A DNA stretch of 64,000 nt from Mycolicibacterium litorale. GTDB lineage: Bacteria > Actinomycetota > Actinomycetes > Mycobacteriales > Mycobacteriaceae. Below the pieces are notes generated by a model. The model ran no database searches and had not been told where the DNA came from. It saw nothing but the letters and a program-made list of their open reading frames with translations. Below are positions 51,785 to 63,020 of the stretch, piece by piece; within the stretch, counting starts at the first letter, position 1; each line of letters begins with the position of its first letter. The position numbers and the translations under genes are program-made. The stretch covers positions 4,898,001-4,962,000 of the forward strand of contig NZ_AP022586.1 in the NCBI RefSeq assembly GCF_010731695.1, written 5' to 3'.

Positions 51785-52459
51785 CTAGCGGGCGCGGCGG
51801 GCCAGCCGCTCGGAGTCGCTGATCAGCACGCTCTTGCCCTCGAGGCGGATCCAGCCGCGGTGGGCGAAGTCGGCCAGGGCCTTGTTCACGGTCTCGCGGG
51901 ATGCGCCGACCAGCTGGGCGATCTCTTCCTGCGTGAGGTCGTGGGTGACGCGCAGGGCGCCGCCCTCCTGAGTGCCGAAGCGCTGCGCGAGCTGCAGCAG
52001 CTGCTTGGCCACGCGGCCGGGCACGTCGGTGAAGATCAGATCGGCGAGGTTGTTGTTGGTGCGGCGCAGGCGGCGGGCCAGCACGCGCAGCAGCTGCTCG
52101 GCGATCTCGGGGCGGTCGGCGATCCAGGCGCGCAGCGCTTCACGGTCCATCGACACGGCGCGCACCTCGGTGATCGTGGTGGCGCTCGACGTGCGCGGGC
52201 CCGGGTCGAAGATCGACAGCTCGCCGAACATGTCGCTCGGCCCCATGATCGTCAGCAGGTTCTCGCGGCCGTCGGGTGAGCGGCGGCCGATCTTCACCTT
52301 GCCGTTGATGATGATGTAGAGCCGGTCGCCGGGCTCCCCTTCGGCGAACACGGTGTGTCCGCGCGGGAAGTCGACGGGCTGCAATTGCTTGGTGAGCGCG
52401 GATACGGCGCTGGGTTCGACTCCCTGGAAGATTCCGGCCCTGGCCAGGATCTCGTCCAC
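51785..52459 (-). CDS. crp: cAMP receptor protein family regulator
   Basis: 224 residues: cyclic-nucleotide domain ([20 protein letters not shown]; phosphate cassette [16 protein letters not shown]), long dimer helix ([19 protein letters not shown]) and C-terminal HTH ([21 protein letters not shown]). Length and sequence are those of mycobacterial CRP (Rv3676). Start GTG with AGAGGGG upstream. It regulates carbon and respiratory genes at TGTGA-N6-TCACA-type sites; two such dyads occur in this window (acs and Ms1 promoters). Confidence 0.96.
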
Positions 52460-58792: not shown

Positions 58793-60742
58793 CTACTTGC
58801 TGGCGCGGATCGCCTCGAACACGCTGGGATCAACCAGCGTCGAGGTGTCGCCGAGTTCGCGGCCTTCGGCGACGTCGCGCAGCAGGCGGCGCATGATCTT
58901 TCCGCTTCGGGTCTTGGGCAGTTCGGGGACGACGTGGATCTCGCGCGGGCGGGCGATCGGTGAGATCTCCTTGGCGACCTGCGCGCGCAGTTCGTCGACC
59001 ATGTTCTCGTTGTCCTTGGCGTGCGATTCCAGGATGACGAACGCGCAGATGCCCTGGCCGGTCTGCTCGTCGGTGGCGCCGACGACCGCGGCCTCGGCCA
59101 CCCCGCTGTGGCCGACGAGGGCCGACTCCACCTCGGCGGTCGAGATGCGGTGGCCGGACACGTTCATCACGTCGTCGATGCGGCCGAGCACCCAGATGTT
59201 GCCGTCGGCGTCGTAACGCGCCCCGTCACCGGCGAAATACCAACCCTGCTCGGCGAACCGGGACCAGTAGGTGTCCTTGAAGCGCTGCGGATCGCCCCAG
59301 ATGCCGCGCAGCATCGACGGCCATGGCTGGTCGAGGACGAGGTAGCCGTTGGCCTGCTCGCCGTGGTCGCTGCCGGGCGCGAGCTGGTTGCCGTCGTCGT
59401 CGACGATCTTGGCCGAGATACCGGGCAGCGGCGTCATCGCCGAACCCGGCTTGGCCGCCGTGACACCGGGCAGCGGGGAGATCATGATCGCCCCGGTCTC
59501 GGTCTGCCACCACGTGTCGACGACGGGAGTCTTCTTGTCGCCGAACGCATCCCGGTACCACCGCCACGCCTCGGGGTTGATGGGCTCGCCCACCGAACCG
59601 AGCAGCCGCAGGCTCGACAGATCATGGGAGTCGGGGATCTCGCGGCCCAGTTTCATGAACGTGCGGATCAGCGTCGGCGCCGTGTAATAGATGCTCACGC
59701 CGTACTTTTCGATGACCTCGAAGTGCCGGTGCTCGCTCGGCGAGGTCGGGGTGCCCTCGTAGACCACCTGCGTCACGCCGTTGGACAGCGGGCCGTAGAC
59801 GATGTAGGTGTGGCCGGTCACCCAGCCGATGTCGGCGGTGCACCAGTACACGTCGGTCTCGGGTTTGACGTCGAAGACGTAGTAGTGGGTGTACGACGAC
59901 TGCACGAGGTAGCCGCCGGTGGTGTGCATGATGCCCTTGGGCTTACCGGTGGTGCCGGAGGTGTAGAGCAGGAACAGCGGGTGCTCGGCGTCGAAGGCCT
60001 CGGGCGTGTGCTCGGTGGACGCGCCGTCGACCGTCTCGTGCCACCACAGGTCGCGCCCGTCGGTCCAGTTGATGTCGATTCCGGTGCGGCGCACCACCAG
60101 AACGTGTTCGATCGAGGGCTGACCCTCGACGGCCTCGTCGACCGCGTCCTTGAGAGAGGCGGCCTTGCCGCGGCGGTACTGGCCGTCGGTGGTGATGACG
60201 AGTTTGGCCTCGGCGTCCTCGATGCGGGCCTTGAGTGCCGAGGCCGAGAAGCCGGCGAACACCACCGAGTGCATGACACCGAGCCGGGCGCAGGCCAGCA
60301 TGGCCACGATCGCCTCGGGCACCATCGGCATGTAGATGGCCACCCGGTCGCCGGCCACCAGGCCGAGATCGGTCAGCGCGTTGGCCGCCTTGCACACTTC
60401 GTCTTTGAGTTCGGCGTAGGTCAGCGAGCGCGAGTCGCCGACGGGCTCACCCTCCCAGTGGATCGCCACCCGGTCGCCGTTGCCGGCCTCGACGTGCCGG
60501 TCGACGCAGTTGTAGGCGACGTTGATCTTGCCGCCGACGAACCACTTCGCGAACGGGGCGTCCGACCAGTCGAGCACCTCGGTGAAGGGTGTGTCCCAGG
60601 ACAACCGCTCGGCCTGCTTGCCCCAGAACGCGAGCCGGTCGGCCTCGGCCTCGCGGTACAACTCCTCGGTGGCATTCGCCTGCGCGGCGAACTCGGCCGA
60701 CGGCGGATAGCTGGACTGGACTTCGGTGTGCGCCTCAGACAT
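58793..60742 (-). CDS. acs: acetyl-CoA synthetase
   Basis: 649 residues, typical Acs length. Motifs: LLYTSGTTGKPKGIMHTTGG (P-loop of the ANL family), TWWQTETGAIM, TYWSRFAEQGWYFAGDGARY, and the acetylated lysine motif TRSGKIMRRLLR near the C-terminus. Converts acetate to acetyl-CoA. ATG 60742 is leaderless: TACCCT (60755-60750) lies 7 nt upstream. A Crp-like dyad overlaps that -10 box. Rv3667 homolog; the dppABCD genes that follow it in H37Rv are absent here. Confidence 0.96.
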   Translation of the reverse strand: MSEAHTEVQSSYPPSAEFAAQANATEELYREAEADRLAFWGKQAERLSWDTPFTEVLDWSDAPFAKWFVGGKINVAYNCVDRHVEAGNGDRVAIHWEGEPVGDSRSLTYAELKDEVCKAANALTDLGLVAGDRVAIYMPMVPEAIVAMLACARLGVMHSVVFAGFSASALKARIEDAEAKLVITTDGQYRRGKAASLKDAVDEAVEGQPSIEHVLVVRRTGIDINWTDGRDLWWHETVDGASTEHTPEAFDAEHPLFLLYTSGTTGKPKGIMHTTGGYLVQSSYTHYYVFDVKPETDVYWCTADIGWVTGHTYIVYGPLSNGVTQVVYEGTPTSPSEHRHFEVIEKYGVSIYYTAPTLIRTFMKLGREIPDSHDLSSLRLLGSVGEPINPEAWRWYRDAFGDKKTPVVDTWWQTETGAIMISPLPGVTAAKPGSAMTPLPGISAKIVDDDGNQLAPGSDHGEQANGYLVLDQPWPSMLRGIWGDPQRFKDTYWSRFAEQGWYFAGDGARYDADGNIWVLGRIDDVMNVSGHRISTAEVESALVGHSGVAEAAVVGATDEQTGQGICAFVILESHAKDNENMVDELRAQVAKEISPIARPREIHVVPELPKTRSGKIMRRLLRDVAEGRELGDTSTLVDPSVFEAIRASK

Positions 60743-60745
60743 ATA

Positions 60746-60761
60746 TGTGAGGGTAGTCACC
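60746..60761. promoter_or_regulatory. Crp-like dyad on acs promoter
   Basis: TGTGAGGGTAGTCACC is TGTGA-N6-TCACC, nine of ten bases of the consensus TGTGA-N6-TCACA. It starts 3 bp beyond the acs start and covers the -10 hexamer (60750-60755), so binding should repress. Crp is encoded 8 kb away. Confidence 0.6.
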
Positions 60762-60868
60762 CGACGGGGCGCCCACATCGAGACCTCACATCACCGCCTG
60801 CGGACGGCCGGTGTCATGCGACGAGCGTCGGAAATCGCCGGTCCAGCGGTCGACTACCGTGGGCTGCC

Positions 60869-61609
60869 ATGACGGATCCGTTGGCGCCGCTGGCCGAACT
60901 ACCCGGAGTCGCGGCGGCCGGCGACGAGGCCCGCGAGGCGCTCGGGAAGGCGCACCGGCACCGGACGAATCTGCGCGGCTGGCCGGCCACGGCGGCCGAG
61001 GCGGCGCTGCGCGCGGCGCGGGCGTCGTCGGTGCTCGATGGCGGATCCCTGCAGCTGTCCGACAGCGGTGACCCCGATCCGGTGTTGGCCGGGGCGCTGC
61101 GCGTGTCGCAGGCGCTCGAGGGTGGGGCGACCGCGCTGGTCGACGTGTGGCAACGCGCGCCGCTGCAGGCGCTGGCCCGGTTGCACGCGCTGGCCGCCAC
61201 CGACCTCACCGACGAGGAACACCTCGGCCGGCCCCGTGCCGATGCGGGGGTGGGCCGGCGGCTGGAGCTGCTCGTCGAACTCCTCACCGGCGGCTCGCGC
61301 GTGCCGGCCCCGGTGCTCGCGGCCGTCGCGCACGGGGAACTGCTGACACTCGCTCCGTTCGGGACGGCCGACGGCGTGGTGGCCCGCGGGGTGTCGCGGT
61401 TGGTGACGATCGCCAGCGGACTGGATCCCCACGGCCTCGGTGTTCCGGAGGTGTACTGGATGCGCCAGTCCGGCGACTACCAGGCCGCCGCCCGGGGCTT
61501 CGCCTCCGGGACGCCCGACGGGCTCACGGCGTGGATCCTGCTCAGCTGCCGGGCCCTGCACGCCGGCGCTCGCGAGGCCCTGCAGATCGCGTCGGCCTCG
61601 ACCGGCTGA
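60869..61609 (+). CDS. conserved hypothetical protein (Rv3662c-like)
   Basis: 246 residues, mostly helical, Ala/Leu-rich: LAELPGVAAAGDEAREALGK, AEAALRAARASSVLDGGSLQ and ARLHALAATDLTDEEHLGRP. The N-terminal third resembles the helical N-domain that precedes Fic domains, but no Fic motif (HPFxxGNGR) is present. Labelled oxidoreductase in some annotations without visible support. TACCGT (60855-60860) lies 8 nt before the ATG. Divergent from acs. Function unknown. Confidence 0.8.
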   Translation: MTDPLAPLAELPGVAAAGDEAREALGKAHRHRTNLRGWPATAAEAALRAARASSVLDGGSLQLSDSGDPDPVLAGALRVSQALEGGATALVDVWQRAPLQALARLHALAATDLTDEEHLGRPRADAGVGRRLELLVELLTGGSRVPAPVLAAVAHGELLTLAPFGTADGVVARGVSRLVTIASGLDPHGLGVPEVYWMRQSGDYQAAARGFASGTPDGLTAWILLSCRALHAGAREALQIASASTG

Positions 61610-61629
61610 AACCCCCCAGCAAACGCGAA

Positions 61630-61926
61630 GCGGGCGGCGTTCCGATTCGAGTTCGGCTCGCCGCCCGCCAGCACGGACTCCGGTTACCAAGCGTGCTGTG
61701 TGGGTTGCGTGGGTTGGCCTCGGCGTCAGTGCGATGCGCTTCGACGGACTACTCCACCCAAAGAGTCGCCGTAATCGTTCGCTCTTCGCAATTACGCAGG
61801 CCCGCAACACTTTTGCCTATTCCGCGGCATGTGCTCCGCGTGGGTGCCGGGTTCCGTGCTGGGTCGCCGGGCTCGGGAGATGTCTCCTTCTCTTCCGGTG
61901 ACACCTTGGCCTCGCCTGGCTTCCGT
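61630..61926 (-). ncRNA. probable Ms1 (MTS2823) RNA-polymerase-binding RNA
   Basis: Between the Rv3662c-like gene and the HAD gene is a 405-bp interval without a convincing ORF. In M. tuberculosis this same interval (Rv3661-Rv3662c) encodes MTS2823, and M. smegmatis Ms1 (about 300 nt) is its homolog, binding core RNA polymerase instead of sigma. On the minus strand a promoter (-35 61961-61956, -10 61938-61933) predicts a start near 61926, and a 10-bp-stem hairpin (GCGGGCGGCG with CGCCGCCCGC, 61630-61668) closes it after about 297 nt, matching the known length. Identification is by synteny, strand and size. Confidence 0.78.
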
Positions 61927-61932
61927 GCTTCC

Positions 61933-61961
61933 TTTGTACTACGTGACGACCGTCACATCAA
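61933..61961 (-). promoter_or_regulatory. Ms1 promoter containing a Crp-like dyad
   Basis: On the minus strand TTGATG (61961-61956), a 17-nt spacer and TACAAA (61938-61933) form a strong sigma-A-type promoter. The spacer contains TGTGACGGTCGTCACG (61957-61942), that is TGTGA-N6-TCACG, nine of ten consensus bases for Crp. Binding there would be expected to block polymerase. Confidence 0.6.
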
Positions 61962-62014: not shown

Positions 62015-62872
62015 TCAGAGGGCAAACCGGCGGAGCAGCGAATACGTCAGCGCGCCGGCGGCAAGCGCGCTCATCCCCACCGCCGCCGTGGTGGCCACCG
62101 CAGCGCCCGAGGGTGCCGGGATGCGGTCACGCAGGGACACCGGCTTGGTGAACGTCAACACCGGCCAGCCGCGGGTGACGGCCTCCTTGCGCAGCGCGCG
62201 GTCCGGGTTCACCACGGTCGGATGGCCGACGGCCTCGAGCATCGGGATGTCGGTGATCGAATCGGAGTAGGCGTAACAGTGCTCGAGCGCGTACCCCTCG
62301 CGCGCCGCCAGCGCGCGGATGGCCTTGACCTTGCCCTCGCCGTAGCAGTAGAACGCGATCTCGCCGGTGTACCGGCCGTCTTCGACGACCATCCGCGTCG
62401 CCATCGCGTGGGTGGCGCCCAGCGCACGGGCGATCGGCGCGACGATCTCCTCACCGGATGCCGAGACCACGACCACGTCTCGGCCGCACAGTTTGTGGTC
62501 GGCGATCAGATCGGCGGCCTCGGCGAACACCAGTGGGTCGACGATCTCGTGCAGGGTCTCGCCGACGATGGACTTGATCTGTTCGACGTCCCATCCCGTG
62601 CACATGTTCGTCACGTAGGAACGCATGCGGTCCATCTGGTCGTGGTCGGCACCCGACATCAGGAACAGGAACTGCGCATACGTCGACTTGAGCACGGCCC
62701 GCCGATTGAGCAGCCCCTGATCGAAGAAAGGTTTGCTAAAAGCCAACGTGCTCGACTTGGCGATCACCGTCTTGTCCAAATCGAAAAACGCAGCAGTACG
62801 GACGGGGTGGTCGGGCGAGGATCCCGTTCCAGGCACGATCGAGGGTGCGGCATGCGGCTCCGATGCGCTCAC
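62015..62872 (-). CDS. HAD-IB family hydrolase (SerB-like, Rv3661-type)
   Basis: 285 residues. Motif I AAFFDLDKTVI, motif II VVVSASGEEIV, motif III lysine (GKVKAIRAL) and motif IV AYSDSITDIPML fit HAD-IB phosphatases of the SerB/PlsC-associated group. A C-terminal TM helix (AVATTAAVGMSALAAGALTY) anchors it. GTG 62872 is favoured: TATGCT (62884-62879) lies 6 nt upstream. It may act on phosphoserine or a phospholipid-type substrate. Its 3' end adjoins the Ms1 region. Confidence 0.86.
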   Translation of the reverse strand: MSASEPHAAPSIVPGTGSSPDHPVRTAAFFDLDKTVIAKSSTLAFSKPFFDQGLLNRRAVLKSTYAQFLFLMSGADHDQMDRMRSYVTNMCTGWDVEQIKSIVGETLHEIVDPLVFAEAADLIADHKLCGRDVVVVSASGEEIVAPIARALGATHAMATRMVVEDGRYTGEIAFYCYGEGKVKAIRALAAREGYALEHCYAYSDSITDIPMLEAVGHPTVVNPDRALRKEAVTRGWPVLTFTKPVSLRDRIPAPSGAAVATTAAVGMSALAAGALTYSLLRRFAL

Positions 62873-63020
62873 GGGGCCAGCATAAACGTCATAGTCGTGA
62901 CATCTGGGGTGTCGGCTGTACAAATTGGCAGATCAAGACACGTGTCCGCATACGCAGTTTTCTTACGAATCAGTAATTTCTAAGGTGCCCGGGACTTGCA
63001 TTCCGTGGCCGTACCGTGTG

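Follow-up and report, generated by a model that had tools for sequence, protein, structure and literature searches.

A conserved Crp-type dyad in the promoter of the mycobacterial small RNA Ms1, a putative site of repression

INTRODUCTION

Ms1, known in Mycobacterium tuberculosis as MTS2823 (Rfam family RF02566), is an already described small RNA. MTS2823 lies between Rv3661 and Rv3662c and is the most abundant transcript after rRNA in exponential-phase M. tuberculosis, from which level it rises a further ten-fold (PMC3207917); it is also elevated in fatty-acid-grown and in dormant cells of this species (PMC8044303). In M. smegmatis, Ms1 starts at an A, as mapped by 5′ RACE, increases about 130-fold in stationary phase, and binds the RNA polymerase core without σ factor (PMC4191392). 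That Ms1 thereby sequesters core RNA polymerase, as the earlier note on this locus took it to do, is just one view. A 2019 study in Mol Microbiol is said to have found lower polymerase levels upon deletion of Ms1. The control of Ms1 is called open in PMC4191392, a paper that sets the promoters from M. smegmatis, M. tuberculosis, M. bovis BCG, and M. avium side by side and that cites binding of LexA at the MTS2823 locus. In stationary phase, no gene is affected more by depletion of CarD than Ms1 (PMC12709188).

The regulator considered here, Crp (Rv3676/MSMEG_6189), has the consensus site TGTGA-N6-TCACA; some mycobacteria carry a second Crp, and Crp1 binds without cAMP and more strongly with it (PMC7739888). 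Reported activating sites sit upstream, as at ahpC (−81.5; PMC4218801) and cydA (−58 to −101; PMC7739888), and start-adjacent sites repress (PMC4218801). In M. tuberculosis, CRP-Mt sites cluster from −60 to −40 and from +1 to +20 (PMC4117774). A close parallel in promoter architecture is the M. smegmatis crp2 promoter, where a Crp site lies over the start and control is negative, mainly by Crp1 (PMC7739888). Small RNA genes are among the targets: ncRv13843, ncRv11373, and ncRv13660c have Crp sites (PMC4117774), and MTS0997, with a putative Crp site 107 bp upstream, requires CRP for its expression (PMC3207917). Our search of the accessible Ms1/MTS2823 and CRP literature, including the relevant passages of PMC12709188, PMC3207917, PMC8044303, and PMC5360333, turned up no account of Crp at this RNA's promoter; subscription papers, among them a 2019 study of Ms1 promoter elements, fall outside this scope.

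The locus studied here agrees with the described Ms1/MTS2823 family in sequence, structure, length, gene neighborhood, and promoter, and differs from it in the promoter operator, of which we found no description there. With the Crp and GlxR operators it shares arms, spacing, and symmetry, and the regulator is encoded in the same genome; what differs is the target, which here is the Ms1 promoter.

RESULTS

Our window, that is, the whole 64-kb stretch of Mycolicibacterium litorale DNA under analysis, contains a full-length Ms1 gene on the minus strand (61622..61926), which RF02566 matches over model positions 1 to 304 with 272.1 bits (gathering score, 162) and an E value of 2.2e-72. The gene lies between a HAD-IB hydrolase gene (62015-62923, minus), which is 5′ of it and on the same strand, and a convergent open reading frame downstream that ends at 61609 and whose likeness to Rv3662c we take over from the earlier note. 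Near the end of the RNA there is a terminator hairpin (61630..61668, minus) with 10-base GC-rich arms (61630-61639 and 61659-61668), seen both in the sequence and as a stem in the Rfam structure line. The earlier identification of this interval as Ms1, from its synteny, strand, and 10-bp-stem hairpin, is thus borne out; only its length of about 297 nt needs correction, the model giving 305 nt. By homology to the 5′ RACE end in M. smegmatis, the predicted +1 is the A at 61926.

Upstream of this position, the minus strand reads CCTTGATGTGACGGTCGTCACGTAGTACAAAGGAAGC, followed by the A. It bears the promoter TTGATG-17-TACAAA, which we propose to be of the σA type, with the −35 hexamer TTGATG at 61956..61961 (−35 to −30; minus) and, 17 bp further on, the −10 hexamer TACAAA at 61933..61938 (−12 to −7; minus), which shows few changes on the Ms1 tree described below except at position −10. 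A putative Crp-type operator, TGTGACGGTCGTCACG, occupies 61942..61957 on the minus strand (−31 to −16, centered at −23.5) and agrees with TGTGAN6TCACA in 9 of 10 bases. Both the promoter elements and the dyad were recognized in the earlier note, which placed the dyad inside the promoter spacer; a 9/10 dyad is indeed found there, but its first two bases are also the final two of the −35 hexamer, so that it lies partly outside the spacer. In the entire window this degree of agreement is reached at only two places, the second being 60746-60761. The element at this second place, TGTGAGGGTAGTCACC, lies just 5′ of the likely ATG (MSEAH) of an acetate–CoA ligase gene (58793-60778, minus).

A candidate cognate regulator is also present. 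A crp gene encoding 224 amino acids (51785..52459, minus), the product of which is our proposed regulator, lies within 10 kb of Ms1, its proposed target. Searching the genome with HTH_Crp_2 at a cutoff of 27 bits returned this Crp with 68 bits and two other proteins with 32.3 and 27.3 bits. The window Crp differs from PDB chain 3h3u_A, which we take to be M. tuberculosis CRP, in 7 of 224 residues, none of them in the helix-turn-helix. Across the whole genome, TGTGAN6TCACA with at most one mismatch occurs 85 times, compared to 19 times for the reversed pattern. A different local regulator, LexA, is suggested by the binding at the MTS2823 locus that PMC4191392 cites; between 60505 and 62720 of this window, however, there is no match to the SOS box within 3 mismatches, and hence none near the Ms1 start, which leaves LexA hardly credible as the regulator of this promoter, in this species at least; control by LexA and control by Crp would in any case be compatible. 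The SOS-box pattern employed is the generally known one.

To place the dyad in a broader perspective, we used RF02566 on 148 genomes of the genus Mycobacterium, which yielded Ms1 in 143 of them, at 149 places, and a set of 145 promoters consisting of the best match per genome and two second copies. Divergent second Ms1-like copies, 257 nt long, occur in two genomes (L142 in G091 and L143 in G074; 112 and 110 bits) that carry a normal Ms1 too, and the promoters of these copies lack the dyad. By a strict pattern, 136 of the 145 promoters have a −35 element (TTGMTG in 135, TTGCCG in 1) separated by 17 bp from TANAAA. When the anchor is itself scored, the operator at its fixed place reaches 9/10 in 79 promoters, 8 in 16, 7 in two, and 6 or fewer in 48. 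When every start from −120 to −16 is considered, matches of at least 9 are found only at −31 (68 promoters) and −32 (11 promoters), the latter being the same place with one extra base before the RNA, and at no other start in any of the 145. This recurrence at a single place in 79 of 145 promoters shows that the dyad is no chance match. The core GTGAN6TCAC is intact in 78 promoters, which contain 29 different centers between them, and the base following TCAC is usually G where the consensus has A. The comparison between species by which the earlier note was prepared to be refuted thus speaks for its proposal: the fixed place and the free center expected of an operator are found, except in the 50 promoters that score 7 or below, which represent clear losses within part of the genus.

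Parsimony on the Ms1-RNA tree, calculated per column for 142 Mycobacterium sequences unfiltered for the dyad, gave means of 1.0 steps in the −35 core and 2.5 in the −10 element, 6.7 at the arm positions that belong to the operator only, 21.7 at the center, and 26.0 in the flank from −45 to −40; the most changeable arm positions are −27 (16 steps) and −18 (10 steps). With half-sites judged by −27 and by −18/−17, both are intact in 92 of 163 sequences, both altered in 55, and only one altered in 16. A tree test for joint change of the half-sites did not reach significance, the supported pairs numbering only 5 and 3, on a tree built from about 280 nt of Ms1 in which few branches were supported for this test. 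On this tree the dyad (at least 9/10) must have switched state 18 times or more, whereas 200 shuffles of the labels required 53.8 changes on average and never fewer than 46. The dyad thus follows clades but through more than one event, and a single evolutionary event for its state, which we had considered, is rejected.

In the 50 low-scoring promoters, the −35 and −10 elements are mostly retained, and the altered arms take few forms: on the left mainly TGTGC (24) or TGCGC (8), and on the right TCTAG (35). A pattern for the lost form matched in 62 of 296 genomes. In a scan of named genomes, whose pattern was aimed at the lost form and a few others and which is therefore not a sample, we obtained 27 stretches, of which 7 carry the dyad and the other 20 its lost form. 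The dyad is lost in, among others, M. colombiense, M. alsense, M. palustre, M. sherrisii, M. simulans, and M. vulneris, all of them slow growers, and is kept in M. hippocampi, M. fortunisiensis, M. xanthum, and M. kyorinense; the last of these is a slow grower too, so that loss is no rule for all slow growers. It is lost as well in the genome of L145, presumably M. leprae.

These lost forms bear on whether the dyad is simply a by-product of constraint on the core promoter, with no regulator involved. Part of the conservation does belong to the promoter, since the −35 hexamer includes positions −31 and −30, and promoters without the dyad still retain the bases at −28 and −16. Yet the lost-form promoters keep their −35 and −10 elements while changing −27, −18, and −17, which shows that the promoter does not need these bases, and family f14 (see below) preserves the symmetry with a different outer pair. 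We therefore regard such a by-product as quite improbable.

Beyond the genus, Ms1 was found in 260 of 301 genomes of the family, representing 30 of its 31 genera. Among 21 loci from 20 other genera, drawn from the listed higher-scoring part of the family matches, the fixed place scores 9 or 10 of 10 in 9 loci, 8 in two, and fewer in ten; in one of these ten (L182), inspection by eye revealed AGTGAGCCCACTCACA one base further upstream. The exact pattern CTTGNNGTGAN6TCACNNNGTANAA, which joins promoter and operator, occurs in 123 of the 301 family genomes and in 14 of the 31 genera, and its reversed counterpart occurs in none; the part of these 123 that we compared by eye with the Ms1 coordinates sits just 5′ of Ms1. 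Several genera have a perfect TGTGAN6TCACA, 10/10. In genus g23, both L267 and L268 are Ms1 promoters with this perfect form.

At the level of the order, Ms1 matches were obtained in 25 of 101 genomes; 13 of these are not members of the family but belong to families f14 (11 genomes) and f4 (two genomes). Among the 13 first matches outside the family, the full core is found at the same place in 9, all of them in f14, 7 of its 8 bases in one, and no core in three. Four of the 9 f14 cores read AGTGA..TCACT, with the outermost pair altered on both sides. When 148 genomes of the class were searched, the Ms1 matches beyond the family were all weak; one of them, the Streptomyces-like L287, has the GGAGTACAAAGG element, and its upstream region contains neither the dyad nor a TTG at that spacing. 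The operator of a dimeric protein would be expected to combine a fixed place, constant arms, and a free center with symmetric change, as seen here, and judging by these comparisons of sequence, the putative operator is real, old, and place specific.

Which dimeric protein it would serve is a separate matter. The dyad could be a true operator of some other regulator that recognizes GTGA-N6-TCAC, either a Crp paralogue or a member of an unrelated family, given that sequence preference is the sole link between dyad and Crp, that a second Crp exists in some mycobacteria (PMC7739888), and that the base past TCAC is usually G rather than the A of the consensus. We consider this alternative unlikely, although less so than the other rival readings: a single HTH_Crp_2 protein, the Crp of the window, stands out from the others in this genome, and the perfect Crp consensus recurs in several genera.

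DISCUSSION

In this study, we compared the promoter of a known small RNA across genomes and identified in it a conserved operator for which we found no earlier report. We consider it probable that the spacer of the Ms1 promoter carries an ancestral Crp/GlxR operator, at which Crp would repress Ms1 for as long as its occupancy is high. Crp is the likely binder, as suggested by the sequence of the arms. As to the sign of the control, on which the earlier note did not commit itself, repression is the likely effect, as suggested by the position of the site: with its center at −23.5, a Crp dimer would lie over the core promoter, from the edge of the −35 element through most of the spacer, and would thereby exclude the polymerase. 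This position falls between the two clusters reported for CRP-Mt (PMC4117774). The crp2 promoter is similar in that it combines a Crp-type site over the core promoter with repression, which for Ms1 is a prediction, but it belongs to a protein gene, and its site overlaps the start point whereas that of Ms1 lies in the spacer.

Crp might instead bind the dyad and activate, or merely poise, the Ms1 promoter. Ms1 is, after all, an RNA of stationary phase, and many genes of mycobacteria are activated by Crp. We regard activation or poising as improbable, however, since the reported activating sites at ahpC (PMC4218801) and cydA (PMC7739888) sit upstream, since a dimer at the Ms1 site would take up most of the spacer together with the −35 edge, and since a spacer of 17 bp makes a spacer-remodeling activator unnecessary.

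Under repression by Crp, a fall in occupancy would release the Ms1 promoter, and cAMP would set the timing. Given that Crp1 binds without cAMP and that cAMP strengthens this binding (PMC7739888), it is through altered occupancy that the signal would act. During resuscitation of M. smegmatis, cAMP stays low without added fatty acid and can substitute for the fatty acid (PMC3871856). Release of Ms1 in dormancy and its shutoff on regrowth would fit these data. In lineages that lack the operator, which include many slow growers, synthesis of Ms1 should be free of this brake. More tentatively, we can envisage that repression of Ms1 by cAMP-Crp is the ancestral wiring of several families of the order, such that the rise of cAMP on regrowth turns Ms1 off and frees core polymerase, and that a large, slow-growing part of Mycobacterium has dismantled this brake, leaving Ms1 abundant even during growth; this wider scenario is possible but somewhat doubtful.

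What is reported for M. smegmatis and M. tuberculosis can be set against these predictions. One genome of our collection, G077, contains exact matches to two oligonucleotides published for M. smegmatis mc2 155 and is probably M. smegmatis; another, G616, contains the first of them unchanged and the second with three mismatches. At the operator position, both genomes read TGTGACCCGGGACACG, a score of 8/10 with one half-site degraded. As Ms1 nonetheless rises about 130-fold in M. smegmatis (PMC4191392), its main growth-phase switch in that species is unlikely to be Crp. This rise, with a probably degraded site, and the ten-fold rise in M. tuberculosis (PMC3207917) indicate that other factors act too. 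The abundance of MTS2823 in exponential-phase M. tuberculosis (PMC3207917) is as expected if the brake is missing in this species. In agreement with a loss in slow growers, the main text of the CRP-Mt chromatin immunoprecipitation sequencing paper (PMC4117774) mentions neither MTS2823 nor Rv3661 nor Rv3662c and names no CRP-Mt site there.

The operator may have been overlooked thus far owing to the choice of the four promoters compared in PMC4191392, with the probable M. smegmatis site being degraded and the slow growers named here, which do not include M. tuberculosis, BCG, or M. avium, having lost the dyad. Its conservation singles out a candidate regulator of Ms1 by name and the precise site at which it would act. 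If Crp does control Ms1, the level of this RNA, which controls the polymerase pool, would be set by a signal of carbon and respiration, and if the brake has indeed been lost as proposed, fast and slow growers would differ at the level of this pool.

A second conserved small RNA lies close to Ms1. On the far side of the HAD gene, the plus strand encodes a 6C-type RNA (RF01066; 63051-63126). We take ncRv13660c to be 6C/B11. CRP-Mt has been reported upstream of ncRv13660c (PMC4117774), and 5′ of the 6C RNA in our window we found no Crp site within 2 mismatches. The HAD gene is the one gene that stands between the two conserved small RNAs, Ms1 and 6C.
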